In this document: in pieces, positions 5,530 to 58,627 of the stretch
Numbering within the stretch: the first letter of the stretch is position 1
Layout: each line of letters begins with the position of its first letter
NCBI RefSeq assembly: GCF_003568865.1
Contig: NZ_CP031115.1
Location: 806,001-870,000 of the forward strand
Length of the DNA stretch: 64,000 nt
Source: Rubrobacter indicoceani
GTDB taxonomy: Bacteria; Actinomycetota; Rubrobacteria; Rubrobacterales; Rubrobacteraceae
Direction of reading: 5' to 3'
Translations under genes and position numbers: made by a program
The notes under the pieces: model-generated
The model's database searches: none
What the model saw: the letters and a program-made list of their open reading frames with translations, nothing else
Told to the model about the DNA's origin: nothing

Positions 5530-5904
5530 ATGGCTGTAACCAAAGAAGAGATGATGGAGTCGATCGAGAACATGACCGTTCTCGAGCTTTCGGAGCTGGT
5601 GAAGGCCCTTGAGGAGCGCTTCGGCGTCTCAGCGACCGCCGTTGCGGCCGCGCCGGCCGCCGGTGGTGGCGAGGCGGCGGTCGAGGAAGAGCAGACCGAG
5701 TTCGACGTGGTGCTTACCGGCGCCGGGGCAAAGAAGATCCAGGTCATCAAAGAGGTCCGTGCGGCGACCGGTCTCGGTCTCAAGGAAGCGAAGGCTCTTG
5801 TGGACGAGGCTCCCAACCCGGTCAAGGAGGGTCTGGACAAGGACGAGGCCGAGGCTCTCAAGGCCAAGCTCGAAGAGGCCGGTGCGAGCGTCGAGCTCAA
5901 GTAG
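5530..5904 (+). CDS. rplL: 50S ribosomal protein L7/L12
   Basis: A 124-residue stalk protein: N-terminal dimerisation domain ([21 protein letters not shown]), an Ala/Gly-rich hinge (about 40-52), and a C-terminal factor-binding domain with [20 protein letters not shown]. It recruits EF-Tu and EF-G. AAGGAGAAGGA precedes the ATG at 5530; the upstream open frame is not the true start. Confidence 0.97.
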
Positions 5905-45628: not shown

Positions 45629-47854
45629 TTGGTCTCAGAGAACTTTTCGATGCGGGAGGCGTACCGGGGGAAATCCGTGCTGCTTACGGGCGGGACGGGC
45701 TTTCTCGGGACGGCGATGGTCGAGAAGATCCTCCGCTCCCTGCCCAGTATAGAGAAACTCTACCTTCTCGTGCGGCCCTCGGGCTCCAAGTCCGGTCAGC
45801 GGCGCATCGAGGAGGACCTGTTCGCCTCGCAGGCCTTTGCAAACCTCCGGGAGCAGAGGGCCGGCGACTTCGAGAGCTACGCGCGCGGAAAAGTGCGGGC
45901 CGTCGAGGGCGACACGCACCGCGCCGGGCTGGGGCTTTCGGACGGGGACCTCGCGGAGCTCTCGGAGAACGTGGACGTGGTCATACACTCGGCGGCGTCC
46001 GTGATGTTCGATGCGCCGCTCGACGCCGCCGTCGCCTCCAACGTACACGGGACGCTCGCGCTTCTCGAGCTCGCTAAAAAGTGGAGAAAGAAGCCGCTCT
46101 TTGTCCACGTCTCGACCTCGTACGTTGCGGGGAAAAGGCCCGGTCTGATCCCCGAGGAACCGCCGCGGGAGAGCACCCCGAACGCGACCTACCTCGACCC
46201 GGTCGCCGAACTCAAGCACCTCGATTCGATTATCCGCGAGGTGGAGGAGACGGCTCGCAGAAAAGACTTCGACACCGAAGAAGCCCGCACCGAGTGGCGG
46301 CAGGAGCGGCTCGTCGAGCGCGGCAACGAGCGGGCGCAGGAGTACGGCTGGCACGACGTCTACACCTTTACGAAGTCGCTTGCTGAACGGATGGTCCTGC
46401 GAGAGCGGGGCGAGGTCCCGGTCGTGATACTGCGGCCCGCGATCATCGAGAGCTCGCTTGCGGAGCCTTATCCCGGCTGGATCGTCGGTACCAAGATGGC
46501 CGACCCGATAATCATGGCCTTCGCTCGCGGCATCCTGCGCGAGTTCCCCGGTGACCCGGAGAGCCTGATAGATATAGTCCCGGTGGATCACGTCGTCAAC
46601 GCGACGCTCGCCGTCGGTGCGACGCGCCCGGAGAACCCGGAGGTCTTTCAGGTTGCTTCCGGACAACGCAACCCGCTTCGCTACCGGGACCTCTACGAGT
46701 ACGTCCGGGGCTACTTCCTCGACAACCCGCTGCGCGACTCCGGCGGTCGTCCGCTGCAGCCGCACGAGTGGAGCTTCCCGGGCAGCAAGGCCGTCGAGCG
46801 CGCCCTGAAGCTGGAGATGCTCGCGCTCAAGGCCGGGGGGTTTATCGTCTCGAAGCTGCCGGAGGGACACCTCGCGCTCGATCTCAGGCAGAAGCTCTCG
46901 CGGGCGGAGAAGCGCTCTACGATGAGCCTGTACTTCAGCCGCATCTACGGCGGGTACGCGAACATGGAGTCAACCTTCGCAAACGACCGGACCACCGCTC
47001 TCTACGAGTCGCTGTCGGAGGCCGAGCGGCGGGAATTCCCCTTCGACATAGGGCTGATGGACTGGGAGGGCTGGCTCTGGGGAGCGCACCTGCCCGCGCT
47101 CACGACGAGGCCGGACCGGAAGAAAAGGCGACGGTCGCTTGCAAAGCCGCGTCAGACGGCGGCGATCTTCGACGTGGACGGCACGCTTATAGATTCAAAC
47201 GTCGTGTCGTACTTCGCGTGGCTGAAGTTAAGGACGCTGCCGAAGGCGGTCAGGCCATTCTGGCTCGCCGGGTTTCTTGCAAAGGCGCCGTACTACTGGG
47301 GTCTGGACAAGATCAGCCGCGTCCACTTCAACCGGACTTTCTACAAAAACTACCGGGGCTGGGAGAAAAAGCGGGCTGCGCAGCTCGGCGCGGAGAGCTT
47401 TGCGGGATTCACCCTCGACCGCGTGCACCCCGAAGCCCTTGCACAACTCAGGCGACACAAAGATGCGGGCCACAAGGTTATCCTGCTCTCCGGCGCTCTG
47501 GACTTTATCCTTGAACCGATGCGCGACCTCGTGGACGACGTGGTGAGCGCGAAGCTCCGGGAAGAGAACGGCGTCTACACCGGAGAACTCGCCGGGATGC
47601 CGGTCGCCGGGGACGCCCGCGCCCGCATGCTCGCCTCCTACGCCCGCCGCAACGACATAGACCTCGAAAAGAGCTACGCCTACGCCGACTCGATCTCGGA
47701 CTTCCCGATGCTCGAGGCGGTCGGGAACCCGGTCGCGGTCAACCCGGACGGACGGCTCGAAAAGGCCGCCAGAGAGCGCGGCTGGCACGTGCGGGATTGG
47801 GGCCGGGAGGCGAGCCGGGTCCCGACGCCGGTCGAGATACCGGCCCTGCAGTAG
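45629..47854 (+). CDS. Fatty acyl-CoA reductase-like SDR fused to a HAD-IB phosphatase
   Basis: A 741-residue two-domain protein. Residues about 14-480: NAD-binding-4 (male-sterility/fatty acyl reductase) domain with SVLLTGGTGFLGTAMVEKI, VIHSAASVMFD, HVSTSYVAGKRPG, catalytic Y-x-x-x-K in DVYTFTKSLAER, and VILRPAIIESS. Residues about 508-735: HAD-IB phosphatase with FDVDGTLIDSNVVSYFAWL (Asp515, Asp517), VILLSGALDFIL and ADSISDFPMLEAVGNPVAVN. Such a protein could reduce activated fatty acids to alcohols and dephosphorylate a phospholipid intermediate (lyso-PA or PA). Sitting 1 nt after plsY it suggests a role in glycerolipids, perhaps alkyl-ether lipids or wax alcohols; this is inference. TTG start with GGAGGG about 10 nt upstream. 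Confidence 0.85.
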   Translation: MVSENFSMREAYRGKSVLLTGGTGFLGTAMVEKILRSLPSIEKLYLLVRPSGSKSGQRRIEEDLFASQAFANLREQRAGDFESYARGKVRAVEGDTHRAGLGLSDGDLAELSENVDVVIHSAASVMFDAPLDAAVASNVHGTLALLELAKKWRKKPLFVHVSTSYVAGKRPGLIPEEPPRESTPNATYLDPVAELKHLDSIIREVEETARRKDFDTEEARTEWRQERLVERGNERAQEYGWHDVYTFTKSLAERMVLRERGEVPVVILRPAIIESSLAEPYPGWIVGTKMADPIIMAFARGILREFPGDPESLIDIVPVDHVVNATLAVGATRPENPEVFQVASGQRNPLRYRDLYEYVRGYFLDNPLRDSGGRPLQPHEWSFPGSKAVERALKLEMLALKAGGFIVSKLPEGHLALDLRQKLSRAEKRSTMSLYFSRIYGGYANMESTFANDRTTALYESLSEAERREFPFDIGLMDWEGWLWGAHLPALTTRPDRKKRRRSLAKPRQTAAIFDVDGTLIDSNVVSYFAWLKLRTLPKAVRPFWLAGFLAKAPYYWGLDKISRVHFNRTFYKNYRGWEKKRAAQLGAESFAGFTLDRVHPEALAQLRRHKDAGHKVILLSGALDFILEPMRDLVDDVVSAKLREENGVYTGELAGMPVAGDARARMLASYARRNDIDLEKSYAYADSISDFPMLEAVGNPVAVNPDGRLEKAARERGWHVRDWGREASRVPTPVEIPALQ

Positions 47855-49172: not shown

Positions 49173-50768
49173 ATGCCAAGAGAAGGACAGGTCTACGCCG
49201 AGGGGCTTCAGATCACCCTGGATAAAAACAGCCCGCCGATGATGTTCAACGCGGGCGACGGCTTTCACTACGAGAAGCTCCCGGAAGGCACGCGGGTAAT
49301 TTATCCTCCCAAGCCCGTCGAGGCCGTCCCGGACGAGAACGTCGCCATCGAGCGCGCGCTTCTGGAGCCGCTCGACATGGAGCCGCTGCACGACCTCCTC
49401 ACGCCGGGCATGAAGCTCACCATCGCCTTCGACGACCTCTCGCTCCCGCTGCCGCCGATGCAGAAGCCGGACCTGCGCGAGCTCATCATCGGCAAGGTGC
49501 TGGAGAAAGCCGCTGCGAAGGGCGTAGAGGACATCCACATCATCGCCGCGCTCGGGCTGCACCGCCGGATGACGAAGAACGAGCTGACGCACCAGCTCGG
49601 CAAGAGGATCATGTCGGACTTCTACCCCGACCGGCTCTACAACTACGACGCCGAGGACCCGGACGAGAACGTCTTTGTCGGGGAGACGCCGCATGGCGAA
49701 GAGGTAACGGTAAGCAAACGCGTCATGGAGAGCGACCTGCTCATCTACGTGAACATCAACTACATCCCGATGGACGGCGGGCATAAATCCGTTCACACGG
49801 GCCTCTCACCGTACGCCTCCATCAAGCACCACCACACCCCCGAGACCCTGCGGAACACGAAGTCGCTGATGGACCCGGACAACTCCGCGCTTCACGGCTC
49901 GGTCGGTCGGATGGCGGAGGTCTTCAAGGAGCACGTAAAGGTCTTCCACATCGAGACGACGCTCAACAACGCCGCCTTTCCCCCGATGTTCGATTTCATG
50001 GCGAGGCCCGAACACGAGTGGAACCTTGCGACCAAAGCAAACTTCCTTGCAAACCACGCCGCCACAAAAAAGCTCCCGAACGCCGTACCGCACAGGATAT
50101 TCCACTCTATAAAAGCCCCGCACCGCATGACTTCGATACAGGCCGGGGCAACCGACCCGGTCCACGAAAGGACGCTTCGCAACTGCCACGAGCAGCAGCT
50201 TGTCCACGTCGAGGGCCAGACGGATGTCCTGATGGTGGGCTTGCCGTACGTCGGGCCGTACAACGTCAACTCCATAATGAACCCGCTCCTCGTCTACAAT
50301 ATGCTCCTCGGCTACCTCTTCAACCTCTACCGGGGGAAGCCGCTCGTCAGAAAAGGCGGGGTGCTGATCGGGACGCACCCGATGCCCGAGGCGTTCCACG
50401 AAATCCATCATCCATCGTACATAGACCTCTACCACGAGGCGTTTGCGGAGACAAAGGACATATACGAGATCGCCCGCAAATACGAGAAACGCTACGCCGA
50501 AGATCCCTGGTACCGGACGCTCTACCGCTCCTCCAACGCCTACCACGGCGTCCACCCGTTCACCGTTCTATACTGGGGCGCGCACGCCCTCGACCACGTC
50601 TCGGACGTTATAGTCGTCGGGGCCGACCCGAAGGTCGCCGAGCACATTGGACTGAAAAGCGCGCCGACCATCGCCGACGCTCTGGAGATGGCGAAGGATA
50701 AGGTCGGCCCGAGCCCGAGCAGCACCTACATGCATTTGCCTCCGCTGTTCATGTGCGAGGTGGAGTAG
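49173..50768 (+). CDS. LarA-like (DUF2088) protein
   Basis: A 531-residue protein resembling the nickel-pincer racemase LarA. The N-terminal domain has IAFDDLSLPLPPMQKPDLR in place of the LarA D-x-T-R-P loop, so Asp is kept but Thr-Arg is not. GLHRRMTKNEL (His130) matches the catalytic His108 motif; MDGGHKSVHTG (His204, Lys205) matches the lysine that binds the pyridinium-thioamide nickel cofactor. Length exceeds LarA (about 425) with an extended C-terminus (ending CEVE). Substrate unknown; changed loop suggests it is not lactate racemase. No larBCE cofactor genes are nearby. Confidence 0.75.
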   Translation: MPREGQVYAEGLQITLDKNSPPMMFNAGDGFHYEKLPEGTRVIYPPKPVEAVPDENVAIERALLEPLDMEPLHDLLTPGMKLTIAFDDLSLPLPPMQKPDLRELIIGKVLEKAAAKGVEDIHIIAALGLHRRMTKNELTHQLGKRIMSDFYPDRLYNYDAEDPDENVFVGETPHGEEVTVSKRVMESDLLIYVNINYIPMDGGHKSVHTGLSPYASIKHHHTPETLRNTKSLMDPDNSALHGSVGRMAEVFKEHVKVFHIETTLNNAAFPPMFDFMARPEHEWNLATKANFLANHAATKKLPNAVPHRIFHSIKAPHRMTSIQAGATDPVHERTLRNCHEQQLVHVEGQTDVLMVGLPYVGPYNVNSIMNPLLVYNMLLGYLFNLYRGKPLVRKGGVLIGTHPMPEAFHEIHHPSYIDLYHEAFAETKDIYEIARKYEKRYAEDPWYRTLYRSSNAYHGVHPFTVLYWGAHALDHVSDVIVVGADPKVAEHIGLKSAPTIADALEMAKDKVGPSPSSTYMHLPPLFMCEVE

Positions 50769-52988: not shown

Positions 52989-53053
52989 TTGAATCGGGTA
53001 AACCGTAATCAAATGCGGTGGTTTGGGAATGTCTGGAAAGGAGAATCTGCAGT

Positions 53054-54652
53054 ATGGCTGAGGCTGTCCGGGAGGTCGGTCAGGAGGGTTACGTGCCAGC
53101 GGGCACGGTGCATGTGGTAGACCCACACCCCCTGAACTGGCTCTACATCACCTGGAACACCATGGAAGAACCGGTACGCACCGACGAGCGCGGCGAGATA
53201 GTCGGAGCGTGCATGGAGGATTCGCACTGGGAGGGTTCGACCCTTGTCGTCAAGGTGAGGCGCGGCATTCGTTTTCAGGACGGAACCGACCTCACTGCTC
53301 ATTCCATAAAGCGGGCGTTCGACGAGGTTCAGAAGTGGAAAGCCCCGCATCCGCCGGGGACGTACCTGAACTTCCACCCCGACACGACCGTTGATCTACC
53401 GGACGACTACACGATCCGGTTCAACTTTCCCGAGCCGGACGGGCTTGCGCTGGCGAAGTTCCGGGGCTTTCACATAGCAAGCGACCGCTTCTGGGACGAG
53501 GGCGGTTTCGGGAGCAAAACCTACGGCACCGCCGAAGGTCACTGGTGAGCGATTGACGAACCCGGCCCGTGGGGCTCGGGACCGTTCACCCTCGTCGAGG
53601 GCTACTCCACCCTTGAAAACGAGATCGCCATCATAGAGACAAACCCGTTCACGGCGGCCTGGGTCTTCACCGACCTGCCCCGGAGCGACCGCGTCGTGCT
53701 CGAAGCAAACCACGACCACTGGAACAAGGCACGGGGTCCGAGGCTTGAAAAGATCATCTACCTCAACGATATCCCGCAGGCCGAGGCCGTGGACAAGGTC
53801 TGCAACACCGAGGGCGAAATAGACATCGTCAGCGAGATCACCTGGGATCAGGCCGAGCAGGTCATCAACTCCGAGCACGCTAACCTCGTTACCATAGACG
53901 CCATGCGTATCGTCTCCGGCCTGATAAACCGCGACCGCGAGTTCATGGACGACGTAAACGTCCGCAAGGCCCTCAACCATGCCATAAACAAGGACGATCT
54001 CGTCAACAACGTCCTGAAGGGCTACGCGCACCCGGTCGCCGCGATGTCACCGCCGTACTCCGGCGCGCCGACCGACATCGAGCCGTACGCCTATGACCCG
54101 GATACGGCCAAAAAGCTTCTGGCCGAGGCCGGGTGGCCGCAGGACAAGCCGCTCGTCGTGGCAACGACCAGCGACGTAGCGAGCCTTGCGGATTATCTGG
54201 TCGCGAGCTTCGAGGACTCTCTCGGGATAAAGGTGGAGCTGGTCTCCGTGCCGGATGAGAAGCTCGCGGCGGCGCAGAAGGCTCTTGTGGAGAAGAAGAT
54301 CCCCCAGAACTTCGACGTTCTGGTGCACGCCTGGTTTGACCTGGCGGCGGGTTATCCTCCGGCGGTCATCCACCGCGAGTACTACCACTCCGGCGGCGCG
54401 TTCCGCCTCGGACCGCCGCTTGTAGAGTTCGAGAGCCTGATGGCCCGGTCCGCAATCGAGACCGACGCCGGCAAGCTCGGTGACCTCGGGCGCGACCTCG
54501 ACCGTCTGACCCACCGGGAAGCTCTAAGCGTCTTTCTCTGCTGCCCGATGGCTCTGGTAGCCGTGAACAAGCACGTGAAGTTCACCGGACACGCCGCTAC
54601 GCTCGAACTGTGCGAGACCGAGGTGGACGAGGAGCACTGGTCAAGGAGGTAG
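53054..54652 (+). CDS. Solute-binding-protein family 5-like protein, candidate selenoprotein (in-frame TGA = Sec165)
   Basis: A 532-residue frame with one TGA at 53546-53548. Before it: residues 1-164 like the DppA/OppA (SBP family 5) fold (GSTLVVKVRRGIRFQDGTDL, RAFDEVQKWKAP). After it the same frame goes on without a break: AIDEPGPWGSGPFTLVEGYS, EANHDHWNKARGPRLEKIIY, DDVNVRKALNHAINKDDLVN, down to TAG. Homologous oligopeptide-binding proteins have G-T-G-P-F and the strand order seen here, so both halves belong to one protein. The TGA sits in G-H-W-U-A-I. A ribosome site AAGGAG precedes ATG 53054 by 10 nt. There is no signal peptide or lipobox, so it looks cytoplasmic and is not a normal transport receptor. 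A hairpin begins 13 nt after the TGA. I do not know a described Sec protein of this type. Alternative: recent nonsense mutation. Confidence 0.75.
53561..53580 (+). promoter_or_regulatory. Candidate bacterial SECIS hairpin (SBP-like gene)
   Basis: CCCG (53561-53564) pairs with CGGG (53577-53580) and GCCC (53565-53568) with GGGC (53572-53575), with one bulged T (53576) and apical loop GTG (53569-53571) at +21 to +23 from the TGA. A bulged U in the stem and a G-containing apical loop are features of the E. coli fdhF element. Confidence 0.6.
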
Positions 54653-54684: not shown

Positions 54685-54714
54685 GGCCGGAGAGATCACC
54701 CCTCCGGCCTTTCT
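54685..54714 (+). terminator. Terminator after the SBP-like gene
   Basis: GGCCGGAG (54685-54692) pairs with CTCCGGCC (54702-54709), loop of 9 nt, then TTTCT. It is 33 nt after the stop at 54652 and supports the reading of the whole gene as one unit. Confidence 0.8.
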
Positions 54715-58296: not shown

Positions 58297-58566
58297 CTAC
58301 ACAGTGCAGCCGCGCCCCATCCAGCCGATCTGCGGCTCTTTGTCTTTCTCGACGATGACGGGGACCGTTCGCTTGCCGCCGGTAATGGCAAGCATCCGCT
58401 CGTAGGCCTCGCGGTCTTTCTCCACGTCGTATTCAACGAAATCCACCCCGCGCCACTCGAGGTCTTCTCTGGCGGCCTCGCTGTACTGGCACCCTTCCGT
58501 CGTGTAAAGCTCCGTTGCGGGTTCCACAGGTTCTCCTTGCTTCTCTGTTGTTTCCCTCCGATTCAT
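58297..58566 (-). CDS. Glutaredoxin-like protein, UXX-star-type family (Cys form)
   Basis: An 89-residue thioredoxin-fold protein. ELYTTEGCQYSEAAREDLEW carries active-site Cys26 in C-x-x-S form, VEYDVEKDREAYERMLAITG and GKRTVPVIV give the cis-Pro TVP motif, and the tail is IGWMGRGCTV with Cys87. Related families in other bacteria, named UXX-star, often carry Sec at the active site; here it is Cys. ATG 58566 preferred; GTG 58590 possible. Upstream of PFK by 77 nt. Confidence 0.75.
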   Translation of the reverse strand: MNRRETTEKQGEPVEPATELYTTEGCQYSEAAREDLEWRGVDFVEYDVEKDREAYERMLAITGGKRTVPVIVEKDKEPQIGWMGRGCTV

Positions 58567-58627
58567 TCTAGCCTCGCTTGCTGCGACCACCCGACGGCTG
58601 ACGCCCCGTGGTCGGGGTACAACCCGC

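Follow-up and report, generated by a model that had tools for sequence, protein, structure and literature searches.

The window, a 64,000-nt stretch of Rubrobacter indicoceani DNA, contains two plain open reading frames (53018-53548 and 53696-54652) that share one frame of the forward strand and join when the single TGA at 53546-53548 is read through. The joined frame runs from an ATG at 53054 to a TAG ending at 54652 and is open over 532 residues, codon 165 being its sole in-frame TGA. Its translation matched the SBP_bac_5 family (PF00496) with 180 bits (gathering threshold, 32.4; E-value, 1e-52) over residues 60-429, a span that includes the TGA. The match on both sides of this codon bears out the original prediction, which had described one protein cut by a TGA in the sequence GHWUAI; the positions given there for the start, the TGA, and the stop were all correct. 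We refer to the gene, with the TGA read as selenocysteine (Sec) at residue 165, as the Sec-SBP gene. A ribosome binding site-like AAAGGAG (53039-53047, forward strand) precedes the ATG, and in the alignment GGA-rich sites precede the start in most homologues. The gene had also been credited with a promoter and a terminator of its own. Only the ribosome binding site was fully upheld: the promoter scan gave no sigma-70-type promoter, and the strict scan rule gave no terminator. A candidate terminator hairpin, seen by folding, lies downstream on the same strand at approximately 54685-54714 (GGCCGGAG, a loop of 9, and CTCCGGCC, followed by TTTCT).

A six-frame search of 39 genomes of the order revealed 27 homologous places in 24 of them, each with an internal TGA. 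All 27 TGAs fell into one alignment column, within the motif GEGHWU[AVI]ID[AE]PGPWG[ST]GPF. Twelve further loci with a TGA at the same codon belong to Solirubrobacterales, Dormibacteria, Pseudonocardiaceae, Geodermatophilaceae, Chloroflexi, Rhodospirillales, Methylobacterium, and a further Rubrobacter. A scan of a species-genome collection supplied the members of the first six groups, those of Chloroflexi and Rhodospirillales being MAGs. The homologue on a plasmid of Methylobacterium radiotolerans (NZ_CP090580.1, 9971-11541) shows 35-38% identity and has the motif SAEGHWUVIDAPGPWGTGPF with the same TGA. This copy carries no annotated feature, and an annotated selB directly follows, approximately 85 nt past its end. 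Together, 39 of 39 loci from four bacterial phyla have TGA at the Sec column; Cys, Trp, TAA, and TAG never occur there.

Cys homologues had been expected at residue 165. This expectation failed: none was found in the contig scan of species genomes, in 396 genomes of the phylum, or among plasmids, and every homologue has Sec. Absence of Cys homologues does not exclude Sec. One genome (G014), a congener of a carrier, has an empty site with approximately 200 nt between the isomerase gene described below and the next gene, showing that gain or loss concerns the whole gene. Sec165 seems not to be replaceable by Cys, since lineages retain Sec or lose the entire gene. That Sec is never swapped for Cys points to chemistry beyond that of sulfur.

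In the closer pairs, the sequences 5' and 3' of the TGA both had dN/dS values of approximately 0.05-0.28, indicating purifying selection on either side. A long frame interrupted by a stop codon is also what a pseudogene would look like, here an ordinary binding-protein gene with a nonsense mutation. This reading is refuted by the restriction of the TGA to one column across several phyla, by the absence of TAA and TAG, and by a dN/dS far below 1 after the TGA, and its probability is negligible. The original prediction had itself named the marks of a pseudogene, namely, a residue other than Cys or Sec at this place and a decayed 3' half; an invariant TGA and a downstream half under selection were found instead. 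The presence of two plain open reading frames would also suit a split binding protein, with residues 1-164 and the product of a downstream restart as two separate proteins, and scarce selenium could release the first half. However, the 49 residues that lie 3' of the TGA and upstream of the restart at 53696 are as conserved as the rest, the Sec motif is invariant, and two lineages have the gene next to sel genes. A split was rejected on this conservation and is very improbable.

Extra interruptions or frame shifts were present in a few MAG copies (L024, L040, L044, L045, L084, and L089) and are likely sequencing errors or decay. In L024, a second in-frame TGA stands at residue 429, where the Trp codon is conserved (HAW to HAU); it was seen in this one MAG and is probably a TGG-to-TGA error or decay. 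L044 and L045 are remoter paralogues with Sec (45-46% identity) from two MAGs, each of which has a closer copy as well; both paralogues appear damaged.

The selA, selB, and selD genes and tRNA-Sec, which bacterial selenoproteins require, are all present in the source genome. There, selA and selB adjoin the tRNA-Sec gene at approximately contig 1:1758637-1762009, and selD (contig 1:1785967-1786893) has an in-frame TGA of its own in an AGUASK motif, identifying a Sec-type selenophosphate synthetase. Use of Sec was already known for Rubrobacter xylanophilus (PMC1794560, PMC5330540). Among 22 good genomes of the order, selB was found in 21 and tRNA-Sec in 19; a Sec-SBP carrier of 98% completeness, G006, gave no match to selB or tRNA-Sec. 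A Rubrobacteria genome without the Sec-SBP gene, G015, has two tRNA-Sec genes, on contigs C49 and C19. In a Geodermatophilaceae MAG (L081), the order is tRNA-Sec (5537-5632), Sec-SBP gene, selA, and selB, with selD nearby. Given its place amid Sec-insertion genes in this MAG and in M. radiotolerans, the Sec-SBP gene may be a main reason why some soil bacteria retain selenocysteine.

Decoding of the TGA as another residue, e.g., as Trp by near-cognate readthrough, would likewise yield the full-length protein, and a Trp flanks the TGA. Yet no homologue has Trp or any other sense codon at the site, nearly all good carrier genomes have the selenocysteine machinery, and the gene occurs in sel clusters. 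In addition, several Sec-SBP members terminate in TGA, showing that the genetic code is not generally altered. Reading as Trp was rejected on conservation, and insertion of any residue other than Sec is highly unlikely. The alignments establish, or come very close to establishing, that UGA codon 165 is a sense codon, which selection maintains in genomes possessing the selenocysteine machinery. On this evidence, it is nearly certain that the Sec-SBP gene encodes a selenoprotein.

A SECIS-like hairpin directly follows the TGA (53549-53586, forward strand). It folds with a lower stem GACG/CGUU, an upper stem CCCGGCCC/GGGC-U-CGGG, and the apical loop GUG. In the window and the homologues, the upper stem has approximately 8 pairs and the GUG loop begins 20 nt past the UGA. 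The arrangement is that expected of a SECIS element, with the hairpin right after the UGA and a G early in the apical loop. Compared to synonymous shuffles, the free energy of the hairpin showed a small excess (mean z, -0.58), and at a mean z of approximately -0.6 we rejected energy as standalone proof of a SECIS element. Codon choice is a better test, phylogenetically dependent though it is. On average, 7.47 of 8 upper-stem pairs were observed versus 6.57 +/- 0.15 in 500 synonymous shuffles, a figure that exaggerates significance because it comes from related, nonindependent sequences. Gly171 is encoded by GGC or GGT in all members and Gly176 by GGA in most. In the window, Pro170 is CCC opposite Ser175 TCG, and many other members have CCG opposite C; these codons indicate a compensatory change at synonymous positions. 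Since the conserved GPWGTGP codons dictate most of the hairpin bases, the independent support for the SECIS element is moderate.

Structure prediction for the joined protein, which had been proposed as a check, returned the SBP family 5 fold. The AlphaFold model (pLDDT, 86; pTM, 0.85) has the cluster C binding-protein fold, and its best PDB match was 5u4o (Z, 34.0; 448 residues; 2.4 A). The glutathione-related YliB and GbpA came next, followed by numerous binders of peptides and nickel, at Z values of 28-34 over 430-467 residues. In a tree with six ordinary SBPs, the Sec-SBPs formed a separate clade with 100/100 support. Alignment to the same six proteins placed Sec in a loop of approximately 12-15 residues, absent from ordinary SBPs, directly before a shared GTGPF motif; most of the loop has no counterpart residues in the ordinary proteins. 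In the window, this loop, which is specific to the family and bears the invariant Sec motif, occupies 53522-53578 on the forward strand and runs into the GSGPF motif of SBP_5. Because the Sec loop is among the lowest-confidence parts of the model, with low confidence at residues 150-170, we infer the position of Sec at the cleft from the flanking motifs. Invariant in 13 diverse members were N28, W29, T33-E39, H99-G102, R137, H140, and W147, as well as W164, U165, D168, P170-G174, D429, H440, and R451; H163 was nearly invariant. This pattern appears to resemble an active site more than a generic peptide cleft. There was no conserved partner Cys near Sec, which argues against a thioredoxin-like mechanism.

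Binding proteins of ABC importers have an export signal or lipobox and permease genes nearby; both were missing here. The 24 members with a mapped start lack a hydrophobic N-terminal stretch, which ordinary SBPs have, and their maximum 12-residue hydropathy was 0.4-1.0, compared to 1.9-2.2 in ordinary SBPs. The earlier claim that the protein lacks an export signal was thus confirmed. Ordinary relatives have OPP-type permease genes next door. Near Sec-SBP genes, tblastn gave no match to such permeases in 31 homologue loci, the flanks being short in some.

In Rubrobacteria, the Sec-SBP gene lies just 3' of a conserved block of genes for a plsY-like protein, an acyl reductase/HAD fusion, a Zn-dehydrogenase, and a LarAH14/15/16-type isomerase. 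The fusion protein of the window (45629-47854) joins a fatty acyl reductase-like (Male sterility) domain to a HAD phosphatase domain. The isomerase (49173-50768; 853 bits) is a nickel-pincer-dependent hydroxyacid isomerase of the LarAH14/15/16 family that belongs to the Rubrobacteria core and keeps synteny with the Sec-SBP gene. The LarA homologue was present in 21 of the 22 good genomes versus 14 for the Sec-SBP gene, and since the block is nearly universal and the Sec gene is not, their shared position alone is no proof of a link. A functional tie of Sec-SBP to the LarA homologue or the block was rejected on these counts. Outside the Rubrobacteria block, the compared loci had no conserved partner genes. 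Neighbors in other lineages are amidases, hydrolases, GST, FAD oxidase, or sel genes, and they indicate no substrate. The window also encodes, at 58300-58590 on the reverse strand, a glutaredoxin-like protein of the Uxx-star family (NF041212; 92.7 bits versus a cutoff of 66). It has Cys where Sec forms carry Sec and is another relative of a selenoprotein family in the window.

Taken together, we favor a genuine selenoprotein with a cytoplasmic SBP_5 fold, in which Sec acts directly on the ligand in the cleft, as a soft-metal ligand or a redox nucleophile; we consider this reading reasonably probable. SelB would act on the hairpin 3' of the UGA to insert Sec, and the protein would remain in the cytoplasm. 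A small ligand would occupy the interlobe cleft typical of the fold. A loop at the cleft mouth would carry Sec165 together with His163, Trp164, and Asp168, and from there Sec165 could act on the ligand as a soft-metal ligand or redox nucleophile. The chances are about even that the family is a new selenoenzyme class or Sec-dependent receptor, that is, a cytoplasmic binding-protein fold with an obligatory Sec on a new cleft loop and a reaction or metal new to the fold.

In the first of these roles, Sec would bind a metal or metalloid, and the cytoplasmic protein would be a receptor or chaperone of the NikA kind that handles nickel, mercury, or some other soft metal. A soft-metal role is favored by the nearest named NCBIfam models, which are NikA-type nickel binders (TIGR02294 and NF045468; E-values, 2e-24 and 3e-22). 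The nickel-pincer-dependent isomerase encoded nearby in the window and the invariant His residues (H140 and H440, with H163 nearly so) point in the same direction, and Sec favors soft metals. On the other hand, SBP_5 structures all match the model about equally (Z, 28-34), and the LarA homologue occurs irrespective of the Sec gene, making that link positional only. We regard a metal role as possible but rather unlikely. General Sec chemistry favors a redox role, in which Sec would catalyze a redox or nucleophilic reaction of a bound thiol, peptide, or disulfide. The top structural matches include glutathione-binding SBPs (1uqw and 3m8u), and a glutathione S-transferase gene lies near the Sec-SBP gene in some carriers. 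Redox activity is presumed for the majority of Sec residues (PMC13188914). The missing partner Cys speaks against such catalysis, the association with GST is a loose one, and the structural matches hardly differ in rank; a literature search on thiol biology in Rubrobacter yielded nothing of use. We regard this role, too, as possible but rather unlikely. A soft-metal and a redox role of Sec165 are about equally probable.

A Sec-containing member of the SBP_5 fold had been thought undescribed, and our search agrees: no published PF00496 selenoprotein family was found. Of the 119 families of prokaryotic selenoproteins tabulated in 2026, none belongs to PF00496, which the accompanying text does not name either (PMC13188914), deep-Sep does not mention an SBP_5 selenoprotein (PMC12013277), and NCBIfam 20 has no model naming the family. 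The literature search for SBP_5 selenoproteins also found none, and absence from these sources is no proof of novelty. Sec-SBP is apparently an undescribed selenoprotein family. The prokaryotic selenoproteome would thereby gain an apparently unlisted family, on a fold without recorded Sec. Automatic annotation probably splits or misses the gene, and the M. radiotolerans plasmid copy is wholly unannotated.

Binding proteins with Sec have been described in other families. SaoX and SaoB are Sec-containing ABC-type binding proteins with the motifs UxP and CUxxT, and a selenoprotein form of BtuF (cd01144), of the cobalamin-binding family, has a CxxU motif (PMC13188914). Because these are already listed, the novelty is confined to the SBP_5 family and to a cytoplasmic location and does not extend to Sec-containing binding proteins generally. 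SaoX (NF040735) and SaoB (NF040727) belong to other families, and neither model matched Sec-SBP at E-values up to 1; the Sec-SBP motif is GHWU. BtuF differs in that Sec-SBP is an SBP_5 protein and not a member of the cobalamin-binding family. Compared to the NikA-type proteins, Sec-SBP carries Sec, lacks an export signal, and scored below the curated equivalog cutoffs (85.7 bits versus 393 for TIGR02294 and 78.9 versus 600 for NF045468). With SBP_bac_5 cluster C (NikA, GsiB/YliB, DppA, and OppA), it shares the whole fold and the Pfam family. It differs from these proteins by lacking a signal peptide or lipobox and an adjacent permease, by the Sec loop before GTGPF, and by forming its own fully supported clade.
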